Shown here: piece after piece, positions 1,719 through 34,155 of the stretch | Layout of the letters: the number at the start of each line of letters is the position of its first letter | Position numbering within the stretch: the stretch's first letter is position 1 | From: Desulfuromonas sp. | GTDB taxonomy: Bacteria > Desulfobacterota > Desulfuromonadia > Desulfuromonadales > UBA2294 | Direction: 5' to 3' | NCBI GenBank assembly: GCA_002869615.1 | Contig: PKUH01000113.1 | Coordinates: 1 to 34,155, forward strand | Length of the DNA stretch: 34,155 nt | The notes under the pieces: model-generated | What the model saw: only the letters and a program-made list of their open reading frames with translations | Told to the model about the DNA's origin: nothing | Database searches by the model: none | Program-made: the position numbers and the translations under genes

Positions 1719-3275
1719 TTATTTAATATCGAGGTGGCCAGATGCATCGACATCCTGCACCATGGCGACCTGCTGATTCCCCTTGACCTGCTGCAACAGG
1801 TTTTCCAGGGAAGGATTCATTTTGCTGAAAAAGGTATTCGGATAGATTCCGATCCAGAAGACAAAGATCAACAGCGGTACCATCAGAACGATTTCACGCA
1901 GCGACAGATCCTTCAGCTCTTCATTCTTCGGATTGGTGATTTTACCGAACATGACCCGCTGGTACATCCAGAGCATATAAACAGCGGCCAGAATCACACC
2001 GGTCGTTGCAAAAACGGCATACCAGCGGAGTTCACTTTCAAATGCTCCCATCAGGGCGAGGAACTCGCCGACAAAACCGTTCGTTCCCGGCAGGCCGATT
2101 GACGAGAAGGTAATGATCAGAAAGATCGTCGCGAAAATCGGCATTTTCTTGGCAAGGCCGCCGAACTCGGAGATTTCCCGGGTGTGGCGCCGTTCGTATA
2201 TGAATCCGACGATAAGGAAGAGCGCGCCGGTCGAGATCCCGTGGTTGATCATCTGGATCAGACCGCCGGCCATACCCTGAATGTTCAGGGCAAAAACACC
2301 GAGCATAACAAAACCGAGATGGGCCACTGAAGAGTAGGCGACCAGCTTCTTGACATCGCTTTGCACCATAGCGACCAGTGAACCGTAGATAATACCGATG
2401 ACGCAGAGCGTCGCCAGGACCGGCATGCACTGCTGCAGCGCATCCGGGAAGAGCGGGATTGCAAAACGGACAAAACCGTAGGTTCCCATCTTCAGCAGAA
2501 TCGCTGCCAGGATAACCGAGCCGGCCGTCGGAGCTTCAGTATGGGCGTCGGGCAACCAGGTATGCAGCGGGAACATCGGCACCTTGATGGCAAAGCTGAA
2601 GGCGAATGCCATAAAGAGCAGGAGCTGGTAACTCGCCGGAATGTCGGCCAGATAGAACTGGGCAATGCTGAAGCCCTTCATTTCGATACCGGACTGGATC
2701 GCGAAATAGTAGACAAAGATGATCGCTACCAGCATCAACAGCGAGCCGACCGCCGTGTAGATAAAAAACTTGACGGCGGCGTAGATCCGGTTTTTGCCCC
2801 CCCAGATACCGATCAGGAAGTACATCGGAATCAGCATCAGCTCCCAGAAGACGTAGAAAAGGAACAGATCAAGGGAAATAAAGGCTCCGAGCATCGCTGT
2901 TTCAAGCAGCAGCAACAGAGACATAAAGCCCTTGACGCTCTTTCCGACAGCATTCCAGGTCGACAGCACAGCAATCGGCATGATGAAAGTCGTCAGCATG
3001 ACCAGCCAGAGGCTGATGCCGTCGATGCCGACGTTGTAGTTCATCTGGAAGTACCCCTCAACGTTGATCCAGGGGATAAACTCGGTGTACTGCATATCCG
3101 AACTCATGGTGAACACATCATTGAAAGCCAGTGGAAGGCTGACAAAGAAGGTGACGAGGGTCACAACCAGAGTAAAGCTTTTCAGCAGAGGCTCGTTGTC
3201 CCTGGGAATAAACAGCAGGATCACCATGCCCAACAGTGGCAGGAAAGTCATCAGACTGAGAAGGTGTTCGCTCAT
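1719..3275 (-). CDS. nuoM: NADH-quinone oxidoreductase subunit M
   Basis: This is the second antiporter-like proton-pumping subunit of complex I (518 aa). It shows the conserved Glu in FYVFWELMLIPMYFLIGIWG, the P-L-H-T-W-L-P-D-A-H-T-E-A-P-T helix with its broken-helix proline, and a Lys/His-rich central channel region (K-K-L-V-A-Y-S-S-V-A-H-L-G). Length and motif spacing are normal for NuoM, and the hydrophilic C-terminal tail is short. A ribosome binding site (AAGGAG) precedes the ATG. It follows nuoL by 43 bp, consistent with one transcript from nuoA to nuoN. Plus-strand frames across this gene are antisense shadows of its codon pattern. Confidence 0.97.
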   Translation of the reverse strand: MSEHLLSLMTFLPLLGMVILLFIPRDNEPLLKSFTLVVTLVTFFVSLPLAFNDVFTMSSDMQYTEFIPWINVEGYFQMNYNVGIDGISLWLVMLTTFIMPIAVLSTWNAVGKSVKGFMSLLLLLETAMLGAFISLDLFLFYVFWELMLIPMYFLIGIWGGKNRIYAAVKFFIYTAVGSLLMLVAIIFVYYFAIQSGIEMKGFSIAQFYLADIPASYQLLLFMAFAFSFAIKVPMFPLHTWLPDAHTEAPTAGSVILAAILLKMGTYGFVRFAIPLFPDALQQCMPVLATLCVIGIIYGSLVAMVQSDVKKLVAYSSVAHLGFVMLGVFALNIQGMAGGLIQMINHGISTGALFLIVGFIYERRHTREISEFGGLAKKMPIFATIFLIITFSSIGLPGTNGFVGEFLALMGAFESELRWYAVFATTGVILAAVYMLWMYQRVMFGKITNPKNEELKDLSLREIVLMVPLLIFVFWIGIYPNTFFSKMNPSLENLLQQVKGNQQVAMVQDVDASGHLDIK

Positions 3276-23426: not shown

Positions 23427-23459
23427 AAAAAGCCCTGTCACGTGACAGGGCTTTTTTTT
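23427..23459. terminator. Rho-independent terminator after hemL
   Basis: A perfect 22-base palindrome (23431-23452, arms AGCCCTGTCAC and its complement) is preceded by four A and followed by eight T. It lies about 35 bp after the hemL stop. Confidence 0.93.
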
Positions 23460-25610: not shown

Positions 25611-25642
25611 AAAAGGGCCGCCCAATGGGCGGCCCTTTTTTT
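25611..25642. terminator. Strong Rho-independent terminator after atpE
   Basis: A 13-bp stem (25611-25623 with 25627-25639, A4 on the left pairing with T4 on the right) closes a three-base loop, and seven to eight T follow. On the minus strand it ends in four T, so it may also stop transcription from the mscS-type gene. Confidence 0.93.
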
Positions 25643-30048: not shown

Positions 30049-31077
30049 TTATTTCAATTGTGGCCAGAAGTCCTCCGGACCGAGATCGGATTTCAGGTCC
30101 TCAACCACCTGTTCGGCATCCGGGTCCCCTTCAAGCATGGCGATATGATAAAGCGCGTCGCCCTGATAGACCAGCGGCTGAATCAGCCGGCCGACAACCA
30201 GTCCGGAAACGGGAGCGGTGACCTTTTTTTCTTTTTCGCCAAAAGGATCGGAGACAACTCCGAGATCATCCCCCTTGTTGACATGTCGGCCGACAACCGT
30301 CGATTTGATTTGCATACCGCTGATCGGCGCCCGCACCCATTTCGAGGCTGATGATTTGAAGATCGAATGTGAAATCCGGGACGGCCGACTGGTCAGCATA
30401 CCGATTGCGCGCATCACATTGAGGACCCCGCGTAGCCCGGTGCGGATCGATAACTCGTCAAAACGAAACGATTCACCGGCCTCATACAGCAGCATCGGGA
30501 TACCGAGATCGGCAATCGCTTCGCGTAAGGAACCATCCCGCGTCTGTGCATCGATCATTACCGGCGCACCGAAGGCGATCGCCATCGCCTCGGTCTCAGG
30601 ATTATCAAGACCACCCCTGACCTGGGGGAGGTTGAACCGGTCGTTGGATCCAGTGTGGAGATCGATCCCATGCGTACAGTGCGAGAGGATTTCCGTCAAC
30701 AACAGGCTGGCCAGCCGCGAGGCGAGCGACCCTTTTTCCGACCCGGGGAACGAGCGGTTGAGATCCCTTCGATCCGGCAGATAGCGGCTGCGATGAATAA
30801 ATCCGAAGCTGTTGACGACGGGAATCACTATCAGTGTCCCGCGCAGGCGATCGATATTTTTACGCTTCAGCAGCCGTCGGATAATCTCGACGCCATTGAT
30901 TTCATCGCCATGGATGGTCGAGGTGACAAACATTTTCGGACCCGGCTTGCGACCATGAATAACATGGACCGTCAGGGTCATTTCGGTATGGGTGTAGAGC
31001 TTGGCCATCGGCAGATCGATGGTTGCACGCTGCCCGGGCCTGATCGTCACACCGCCTATGGTAATCGGTGGTTGCAT
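30049..31077 (-). CDS. Succinylglutamate desuccinylase/aspartoacylase-family zinc hydrolase
   Basis: This 342-residue protein has the M14-type zinc carboxypeptidase fold. The first ligands are H56-G-D-E59, the third is H141 in D-L-H-T-G-S, and R-R-D-L-N-R-S-F-P-G (103-112) is the substrate-carboxylate loop. A catalytic Glu is likely in L-L-Y-E-A-G-E. A C-terminal beta-barrel (V-R-A-P-I-S-G, V-T-A-P-V-S-G-L-V-V-G) resembles biotinyl-like domains of this family. Its start follows the rimK stop directly (TGAATG). In this setting, next to an ATP-grasp glutamate ligase, it probably trims or hydrolyses an amide or glutamyl product. A role in arginine succinyltransferase catabolism is unlikely because no ast genes are near. 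Confidence 0.85.
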   Translation of the reverse strand: MQPPITIGGVTIRPGQRATIDLPMAKLYTHTEMTLTVHVIHGRKPGPKMFVTSTIHGDEINGVEIIRRLLKRKNIDRLRGTLIVIPVVNSFGFIHRSRYLPDRRDLNRSFPGSEKGSLASRLASLLLTEILSHCTHGIDLHTGSNDRFNLPQVRGGLDNPETEAMAIAFGAPVMIDAQTRDGSLREAIADLGIPMLLYEAGESFRFDELSIRTGLRGVLNVMRAIGMLTSRPSRISHSIFKSSASKWVRAPISGMQIKSTVVGRHVNKGDDLGVVSDPFGEKEKKVTAPVSGLVVGRLIQPLVYQGDALYHIAMLEGDPDAEQVVEDLKSDLGPEDFWPQLK

Positions 31078-31983
31078 TCAGCCCTTGCCCCGGGTTCGGG
31101 TTTTCCCCGGTTTGCTTTGTTTTTCGATAAACTGAACAATCTGGCCGGCAACGTCCTTGCCGGTTGCCTTTTCGATGCCTTCAAGCCCCGGTGATGAGTT
31201 GACCTCCATGACCACCGGGCCATGGTTGGATCGGAGGATATCAACCCCGGCGACGTTGAGACCCATGATTTTAGCGGAGCGCACAGCCGTCGATCGCTCT
31301 TCCGGAGTCAGTTTGACCACCGAAGACTGACCGCCCCGGTGCAGGTTGGAGCGAAATTCTCCTTCGGCGCCCTGACGCTTCATTGCCGCCACGACCTTGT
31401 CGCCAATGACAAAGCAGCGGATATCGGCTCCGCCGGCTTCCTTGATAAACTCCTGCACCAGGATCTGGGCTTTGAGGCCACGGAAAGCTTCGATGACTGA
31501 TTCAGCCGCCTTCTTGGTCTCGGCAAGCACCACCCCGATCCCCTGGGTTCCCTCCAGCAGTTTCACCACCAACGGCGCCCCACCGACCAGGGAGATCAGA
31601 TCCTGGGTATATCTGGTCGTATGGGCAAAGCCGGTCACCGGCAGACCGATCCCCTTGCGCGACAGTAACTGCATGCTCCGCAACTTGTCGCGCGAGCGGC
31701 TGATCGCGACCGATTCATTAACACTGTAAACGTTCATCATTTCAAACTGCCGGACAACCGCAGTGCCATAGAAGGTGATTGACGCGCCGATCCGGGGGAC
31801 AATCGCATCAAAACCGGTCAACTCTTCTCCCTTGTAATGAATGGTCGGCCGCTGCGACGCAATGGTCATGTAGCAGAGCAGAGTGTCGATGACCTTGGCC
31901 TCGTGCCCCCTTTGCTCTATCGCCTCGACCAGACGACGGGTTGAGTAAAGTTCCGGGTTCCGGGAGAGAATTCCTATCTTCAT
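31078..31983 (-). CDS. rimK: RimK, ribosomal protein S6 L-glutamate ligase (ATP-grasp)
   Basis: This 301-residue ATP-grasp ligase is collinear with E. coli RimK, which adds glutamates to the C-terminus of ribosomal protein S6 and can make poly-glutamate. Diagnostic blocks are the start [26 protein letters not shown], the [17 protein letters not shown] loop, R-S-N-L-H-R-G-G and [15 protein letters not shown] basic tail ([11 protein letters not shown]) follows. It overlaps the upstream protease gene at TAATG. The coupling with a retropepsin-like protease is known from other proteobacteria. Confidence 0.95.
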
Positions 31984-32435
31984 TATTTTCCTTTCGAATA
32001 TGCCTTTCTCAGATCGCGGCCTCCGAGAAAAGATTTCTGCGGGTCGACATTAAAGTTCCCTGCCAGGGCCGTGCGGCCCAGCAACATGCGAAATTTCATG
32101 GTGTCGCGATTGGTCAATGTCAATTCGATCGGCCACGACAGATCTCTAAACACGACCTTCTCTTCAATCACATAGCGACGCTCCTGATGTCCGCCGGAAT
32201 CGGTTACGGTCCGCTGATCTTTGACAATGGACTCGCACACCAGCTCCAGATCATTGTTCTTCTGCAGCGGATGGATGCCGAAACGAACCATGTCAACGCC
32301 ATCCCTGCTGAACGGTTCGATGAAATAGGCATGCAGGGCAGACGTCCTGGCACCGGTATCGATCTTCGCTTTAATCGCCGGGATATTAAGACCCGGCAAG
32401 GCCAGCCACTCTCGCCAGCCGATCAACTCATTCAT
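31983..32435 (-). CDS. rimB: RimB-like retropepsin-type protease (ATP-dependent zinc protease family)
   Basis: This 150-residue protein has the aspartic-protease-like motif D26[10 protein letters not shown] near the N-terminus and the C-terminal block R-M-L-L-G-R-T-A-L. These define the family annotated as RimK/LysX-associated or ATP-dependent zinc protease. In Pseudomonas its relative RimB acts with RimK in ribosomal S6 modification. I use ATG 32433-32435 ([10 protein letters not shown]), where family similarity begins. The frame is open further upstream with atypical residues. It is the first gene of the rimB-rimK-hydrolase-psiE operon. Its promoter was not clearly identified. Confidence 0.85.
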
Positions 32436-32672
32436 TATAATCCGCCCATCACCTGCAGAAGACTTAACTAGAGTATTCCATATTTTGTTTGTTTCGCAAT
32501 GATCACGATTCAGTACATACACCCTATCCTGTTAAAATTACAAATAAAAAACGGCAGAAGTTAACCTTTCAACACCATTTTCAGTCATTGCCATTTTTCC
32601 CTCGCAACTTGCGCTGGACCAATCATTTTCAGGGAAACATCCTGATGTTTTTTAATTCCACATTTTAGTGTT
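32436..32672. other. Intergenic region between rimB and the sigma-54 regulator, mostly featureless
   Basis: This AT-rich divergent region should contain the rimB promoter on the minus strand, but several weak candidates compete (for example TTGCGA 18 bp from TACTCT). A short dyad AAACAT-CCTG-ATGTTT followed by T (32635-32652) looks terminator-like on the plus strand, but no gene ends there. No open frame is convincing. Confidence 0.35.
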
Positions 32673-32702
32673 GCTAATATGTTGCAAATGCAACATATTA
32701 GC
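32673..32702. promoter_or_regulatory. Perfect 14-bp-arm palindrome with TGTTGCA/TGCAACA half-sites
   Basis: GCTAATATGTTGCA, two A, and its exact complement form a 30-bp inverted repeat 58 bp before the sigma-54 regulator gene. It ends directly next to a perfect TATAAT box (32703-32708) and occupies the -35 region. Sigma-54 activators often bind such dyads through their Fis-type HTH and repress their own sigma-70 promoter. The TGTTGC/GCAACA half-site recurs at 34084-34130. Confidence 0.7.
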
Positions 32703-32708
32703 TATAAT
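32703..32708 (+). promoter_or_regulatory. Perfect -10 box (TATAAT) of the sigma-54 regulator gene
   Basis: TATAAT abuts the palindrome. The best -35 positions lie inside the palindrome (TGTTGC at 17 bp or TTGCAA at 15 bp), so a protein bound to the dyad would compete with RNA polymerase. The leader to the ATG would be about 45 bases. Confidence 0.5.
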
Positions 32709-32759: not shown

Positions 32760-34064
32760 ATGGAATATTGCGAAGCAGTCCTCGACAGTGTTGCTGACGG
32801 TGTTTTTACCGTTGATAACGATATGCGCATCACCACTTTTAACCGTGCGGCCCAGGAAATGACCGGATATTCCAAAGAAGAAGCAATCGGTCGATACTGT
32901 TTTGAAGTCTTCCGCACGTCAGTCTGCGAAAGCGACTGCCCGGTTCGGCTGGCGATGCTCAACGACGCTCCGGTCACCAACCGGGAGTTTGATATCCTCG
33001 ATCGGCATGATCAAAAACTGCATGTTTCGGTCAGCGCTTCAGTTTTACGAGATGAGCACGGTAATGCCGTCGGCGGTGTCGAGACATTGCGCGACCTCTC
33101 CCTGATTCTGGCCTTGAAGCGGGAAATCAAGGATATGTACTCGTTTCAGGATATGATCAGTCGCAACCATGAAATGCAGCACCTGTTTAATGTCATCCCT
33201 GATGTCGCGCTCAGTGACGCAACCATCCTGATTCAGGGCGCAAGCGGAACCGGCAAGGAACTCATTGCCCGTGCTATTCATGACCTGAGCGGGCGCAAGG
33301 ACGGTCCGATGGTCACGGTCAACTGCGGAGCCCTGCCGGAACCTTTACTCGAAGCCGAGATATTCGGCGCCAAGCGTGGCGCCTACACCGGCGCCATGGA
33401 GAACCGCCCGGGCCGCCTTGAAATGGCTCAGGGAGGCACGCTCTTTCTTGATGAAATCGGCGACCTGCCGCTGCCGCTCCAGGTCAAACTACTGCGCGTG
33501 CTTGAAAACCGCGAATACCAACCCCTCGGCGCCAAGCATCCGCAGAAGGCCGATGTTCGATTTCTCACCGCAACTCACCGCAACATTGTCGATATGGTTG
33601 AAGAAGGAACATTCCGGCGTGACCTCTTTTTCCGTATTAATGTTGTTTCTCTCGAGGTACCGTCGCTCAACAGCCGGCCGGAAGATATACCGCTGCTCCT
33701 CGATTTTGCCCTCGATAAGTTCAACCAGAAGTACGGCAAACGGATCCGCGGATTCTCCCCCGAAGCGATGCAGGTCATGCTCGAACACGACTACCCCGGG
33801 AATGTCCGTGAACTCCTTAATCTGGTCGAGCAGGTTGTCATTCTCTGCCACAGCGGCGAAATCGAGCTCGAACAGCTCCCGGCATCCCTCACCATGAGTC
33901 GACGCGACAAGGATGTTGCAACCCGATCAAGACGGCGCCCCAACAAGGAAACATTGCTTCGCATCCTTGAAAAACATAACGGCAACAGGACCGAGGTTGC
34001 CGAAGAATTCAATGTTGACCGCACAACCCTCTGGCGCTGGATGAAACGTTTCGATTTGACCTGA
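32760..34064 (+). CDS. PAS-domain sigma-54-dependent transcriptional activator (Fis-type HTH)
   Basis: This 434-residue enhancer-binding protein has an N-terminal PAS domain (about 5-115) containing C56-x3-C60-P in its variable loop. A linker helix follows. The AAA+ domain has Walker A G-A-S-G-T-G-K-E (160-167), the sigma-54-contacting loop G-A-Y-T-G-A (207-212, Tyr in place of the usual Phe), and Walker B G-G-T-L-F-L-D-E (225-232). A C-terminal Fis-type HTH (N-K-E-T-L-L-R-I-L-E-K-H-N-G-N-R-T-E-V-A, then a recognition helix V-D-R-T-T-L-W-R-W) ends the protein. There is no receiver domain, so the signal should be sensed by the PAS domain itself, possibly redox or a ligand. It is flanked by matching operator-like sites on both sides. 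Confidence 0.95.
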   Translation: MEYCEAVLDSVADGVFTVDNDMRITTFNRAAQEMTGYSKEEAIGRYCFEVFRTSVCESDCPVRLAMLNDAPVTNREFDILDRHDQKLHVSVSASVLRDEHGNAVGGVETLRDLSLILALKREIKDMYSFQDMISRNHEMQHLFNVIPDVALSDATILIQGASGTGKELIARAIHDLSGRKDGPMVTVNCGALPEPLLEAEIFGAKRGAYTGAMENRPGRLEMAQGGTLFLDEIGDLPLPLQVKLLRVLENREYQPLGAKHPQKADVRFLTATHRNIVDMVEEGTFRRDLFFRINVVSLEVPSLNSRPEDIPLLLDFALDKFNQKYGKRIRGFSPEAMQVMLEHDYPGNVRELLNLVEQVVILCHSGEIELEQLPASLTMSRRDKDVATRSRRRPNKETLLRILEKHNGNRTEVAEEFNVDRTTLWRWMKRFDLT

Positions 34065-34083: not shown

Positions 34084-34130
34084 TGTTGCATTGTGTTGCG
34101 TTGCTATAAATTGCAACACCAATTGCAACA
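34084..34130. promoter_or_regulatory. Cluster of TGTTGC/GCAACA half-sites downstream of the sigma-54 regulator
   Basis: Two direct half-sites TGTTGC (34084-34089, 34094-34099) face two complementary half-sites GCAACA (34113-34118, 34125-34130). An AT box (TATAAA, 34105-34110) lies between them. Same core as the palindrome before the regulator gene. It probably serves the next gene, which lies beyond the window. Confidence 0.55.
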
Positions 34131-34155
34131 TTTACATTTGAATCCTAAAATTAAA

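Follow-up and report, generated by a model that had tools for sequence, protein, structure and literature searches.

A perfect palindrome beside a PAS/sigma-54 regulator gene of Desulfuromonas sp. is a likely operator for control of the regulator's own gene

Within the window, that is, the whole 34,155-nt stretch of DNA that was analysed, a perfect 30-bp palindrome at 32673-32702 is likely to be the operator by which the adjacent PAS/sigma-54 activator controls its own gene, as suggested by the comparison of related sequences. In the circuit that we propose, the Fis-type HTH of the regulator would recognise TGTTGCA half-sites, either paired as TGTTGCA-N2-TGCAACA or in short arrays about one helical turn apart. 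Where such sites lie upstream of sigma-54 promoters, the regulator would work as an enhancer-binding protein that switches on PF02579 (orange-protein/NifX-like) genes and their partners, which would be Mrp/MinD-type ATPases in relatives and, in its own genome, an NrfD/FeS/cytochrome operon together with tiny single-helix membrane peptides. At its own gene, the operator would stand directly against the TATAAT of a non-sigma-54 promoter and the regulator would repress its own level. We infer binding and activation by the regulator from sequence; activation via upstream arrays combined with self-repression at the TATAAT would be the simplest reading of the data.

Results

Palindrome and half-sites

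Sequence inspection and a repeat scan showed 14-bp arms around a centre of AA (GCTAATATGTTGCA-AA-TGCAACATATTAGC) at 32673-32702, exactly as claimed in a preliminary description of this DNA, and a TATAAT without mismatch directly 3' of it at 32703-32708 (plus strand), also as claimed. Such dyads had been called rare by chance, and the numbers bear this out: given the local composition, about 3e-5 palindromes of this kind are expected in the intergenic region, and in 40 composition-preserving block shuffles of the whole window the longest perfect arm was 11 bp, compared with 14 bp here. The palindrome is real and far beyond chance, and it is one of the window's longest perfect dyads. Three further long perfect dyads (164-194, 23427-23456 and 25611-25639) differ from it in being terminator-shaped, GC-rich stems with A/T runs alongside.

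The core operator TGTTGCA-AA-TGCAACA would occupy 32680-32695. Two elements had been overlooked in the preliminary description. One is a third half-site, TGTTGC at 32669-32674 (plus strand), which precedes the dyad's left half-site by 11 bp, about one helical turn; together with it, the palindrome is the core of a predicted three-half-site operator. The other, downstream of the regulator gene, is an array of four half-sites at 34084-34130 (TGTTGC at 34084 and 34094, GCAACA at 34113 and 34125), a putative enhancer of the next operon; the contig, C113, ends shortly afterwards, at 34155.

Half-sites cluster beside homologs of the regulator

Homologs of the regulator were collected at E <= 1e-150, which corresponds to about 55% identity and above; they are present in 46/136 genomes of the order Desulfuromonadales, and the 47 loci at this cut-off were compared. 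With the window excluded, 128 GTTGC/GCAAC half-sites were counted in the 250 bp downstream of homologs, compared with 22 (sd 4.6) in shuffles, and 34 in the 200 bp upstream, compared with 14 (sd 3.7). Of the 47 loci, 31 carry at least four half-sites in the 250 bp that follow the regulator gene, and 30 carry a convergent dyad. Convergent half-sites in the homologs' downstream arrays most often start 9 bp apart, just as in the palindrome. Many of these downstream arrays precede a TGGCAC-N5-TTGG-type sigma-54 (-24/-12) element, followed by PF02579 (NifX/orange-protein-like) or Mrp/MinD-type genes. This footprinting ties the motif to the regulator independently of the window. The adjacent regulator had been proposed earlier as a natural binder of the palindrome, and the clustering of half-sites beside its homologs, often before a sigma-54-like promoter and with the palindrome's own spacing, supports that proposal well.

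Conservation of the dyad at orthologous loci, which the preliminary description had named as a test, stood only in part: the motif is conserved, mostly downstream, and a dyad upstream of the regulator was found at just 2/47 loci, one of them (G045) besides the window. In a relative of the same genus (G001), two direct TGTTGC half-sites, 11 bp apart, lie upstream of the homolog where the window has its dyad. Because the upstream dyad is so restricted and conservation of the motif lies mainly on the downstream side, the sites probably serve chiefly to activate a neighbouring sigma-54 operon, and autoregulation would probably be a lineage-specific addition.

The regulator and its relation to DVU2106

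The regulator gene (32760-34064, plus strand) encodes 434 aa with a PAS domain, a sigma-54 AAA+ domain (PF00158, E 1.9e-65), a GAYTGA loop and a Fis-type HTH (HTH_8, E 2.6e-7), as identified by domain matches and alignment. With its sigma-54 AAA+ domain, its loop of the GAFTGA type and its C-terminal Fis-type HTH, the product has the features of a bacterial enhancer-binding protein, and its AlphaFold model is confident (mean pLDDT 86.7). Three PAS cysteines, C47, C56 and C60, are invariant across 27 aligned proteins, one Desulfovibrionaceae-like candidate among them, which suggests redox sensing through these residues. DVU2106 of Desulfovibrio is called OrpR in later work, and OrpR holds an iron-sulfur cluster by its PAS cysteines. 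A close paralog of the window regulator in the same genome (C13:43511-45241, 57% identity) has a NifX-like gene nearby and no TGTTGC arrays. Divergent from the regulator, the window carries RimB-like retropepsin, RimK glutamate ligase and AstE/AspA-like genes (30049-32522, minus strand).

In Desulfovibrio vulgaris Hildenborough, DVU2106 is a sigma-54 activator of the orp operons, with palindromes upstream of the sigma-54 promoters of PF02579 and Mrp-type genes; its own gene has a sigma-70 promoter overlapped by its binding palindrome, and self-repression was reported (PMC3897727). The window regulator has in common with it the single-component sigma-54 activator type and sites before sigma-54 promoters of PF02579/Mrp-type genes, adjacent in relatives and on another contig, C94, in its own genome. 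We also compared it with Desulfovibrionaceae-like candidates; their locus G330 was recognised by the loop GAFTDA, by adjoining Mrp-type genes and by one exact published 13-bp IHF site. The gene neighbourhood is common to both groups, as is the PAS cysteine pattern C-x8-C-x3-C, seen in the window regulator and one candidate. Identity, however, is about 46-47%, the loop is GAYTGA in the window regulator and GAFTDA in the candidates, and the recognition helices differ (DRTTLWRWMKR against ITKDTLRRI). The operator words differ as well: TGTTGCA-N2-TGCAACA in the window, GGACGAA/GGGCG-type dyads (GGACGAATAATTCGTCC, GGGCGCAAAACGCGCCC) at the Desulfovibrionaceae-like loci. No TGTTGCA dyad was found beside the regulator at the latter loci, to which this comparison of operator words refers.

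In the phylogenetic tree, the window's group forms a separate, well supported clade (100/99) within a larger family (93/94) that includes the Desulfovibrionaceae-like proteins, and the tree does not support strict orthology to DVU2106. The common cysteines and neighbourhood, together with the different helix, dyads and clade, therefore point to a DVU2106-like circuit, in which the window regulator is by sequence a sister subfamily of DVU2106-type regulators with another operator word.

A literature search for TGTTGCA-N2-TGCAACA found nothing relevant among the papers returned. A likeness exists with LuxO of Vibrio, whose site is TTGCA-W3-TGCAA: the half-site TTGCA, the NtrC-family activator type and the placement of sites some 100 bp ahead of sigma-54 promoters all resemble the window system. 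The LuxO site has one base more between its half-sites than the window operator; moreover, LuxO works in quorum sensing as a phosphorylated response regulator, with targets unrelated to those of the window regulator.

Control of the regulator's own promoter

A promoter scan upstream of the regulator returned no promoter with a usual spacer, and no good -35 hexamer stands at a 16-18 bp spacer; the best candidate, TTGCAA (4/6 matches), lies within the dyad with a spacer of 15 bp. The preliminary description had the palindrome covering the -35 region, which holds by position, but not for a recognisable -35 box. As that box is poor, it is the TATAAT by itself, the putative -10 of the regulator promoter, that argues for promoter overlap. 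Since the operator abuts this TATAAT, regulator bound there would be expected to keep RNA polymerase off and its own level low, and it probably represses its own promoter. The negative autoregulation proposed in the preliminary description is thus plausible, with DVU2106 as a precedent.

Alternatively, the upstream site might bind the same regulator with a positive or neutral effect, serving positive autoregulation or storage/nucleation. With so poor a -35 box, the promoter could be an activated one, and regulators of this sort are normally activators. We consider this unlikely, however, as the stretch from the palindrome to the regulator gene showed no sigma-54 -24/-12 element, the dyad abuts the TATAAT, which is a repressing position, and DVU2106 is reported to repress itself.

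Copies elsewhere in the genome

The search for GTTGCA-N1..5-TGCAAC in the regulator's own genome gave six places, four of them within genes and the others being the window palindrome and C94:6279. Dyads on C15, C31, C91 and C110 were rejected as sites because they are coding. The genome search for TGTTGCA-N2-TGCAACA proposed in the preliminary description gave only two other copies of the 16-bp core, of which one is coding and the other lies at the C94 operon. When arrays of three half-sites were searched, matches outside genes were obtained only on C113 (twice) and at C108:96706; a further match on C24 falls in a doubtful 85-aa ORF, and the remaining ones lie in coding genes. The intergenic sites on C113 flank the regulator at both ends.

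On the reverse strand of C94, the dyad is followed by the sigma-54-like element CGGCACGATACTTGA, a NifX-like gene, a PF02579 gene and genes for NrfD-type proteins, an FeS protein and cytochromes; no Mrp gene was seen in this operon. As this layout is the one found after the regulator in relatives, C94 may follow C113, the two contigs having no overlap. The C108 array precedes a sigma-54-type element, TGGCATGAAGATTGG, and then three small single-helix membrane peptides, of a kind that the C94 operon also encodes and that recurs behind the G001 regulator gene. On C57 (L004:1418-1517), the sigma-54-like TGGCACCATCCTTGC and then the dyad TGTTGCATGTCGCAACA lie before a dctP-like TRAP transporter gene; this dyad was set aside for its unusual place downstream of the TGGCAC-N5-TTGC element.

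These distributions also bear on whether the palindrome could serve another transcription factor and only happen to lie next to this regulator. Most homologs do lack an upstream dyad, as such a factor would allow, but the same half-sites also cluster just after the gene and, in most genomes, beside its homologs, and the intergenic copies in the own genome lie at the regulator gene and before sigma-54-type promoters, which makes a different factor distinctly improbable. We give almost no credence to the palindrome being a mobile repeat or forming a terminator or leader hairpin in RNA, as its long perfect dyad symmetry might suggest: terminator, hairpin and repeat readings were rejected, given that no T run follows the palindrome, that it lies upstream of the TATAAT and therefore outside the predicted transcript, that it does not resemble the terminator-shaped dyads elsewhere in the window, and that its core has so few other copies.

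A possible regulon

Returning to the regulator as the binder of its own operator, a wider proposal can be made tentatively, and we hold it somewhat short of an even chance: an OrpR sister subfamily, with a redox-sensing cysteine PAS domain and a TGTTGCA code, might govern a small Desulfuromonadales regulon of orange-protein-like metal-sulfur proteins, an NrfD-type quinol/cytochrome complex and undescribed single-helix peptides of about 50 residues. The analysis as a whole supplies a defined operator word and a few likely targets for a widespread, apparently unstudied Desulfuromonadales activator. It also suggests that circuits of the DVU2106 type occur outside Desulfovibrio with a changed DNA specificity, and it links orange-protein-like genes to a respiratory membrane complex.

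The membrane peptides have about 50-57 residues and a single helix, with the pattern ..WLVxLAVIVGLTVxxxxxVGWPIxAHLAxKFMG, and their genes lie in tandem behind half-site arrays and sigma-54-like elements on C94 (L052:5607-5732 and 2465-2623, minus strand), on C108 (L122:7549-8150) and in the same-genus relative (G001:C193:1-650).
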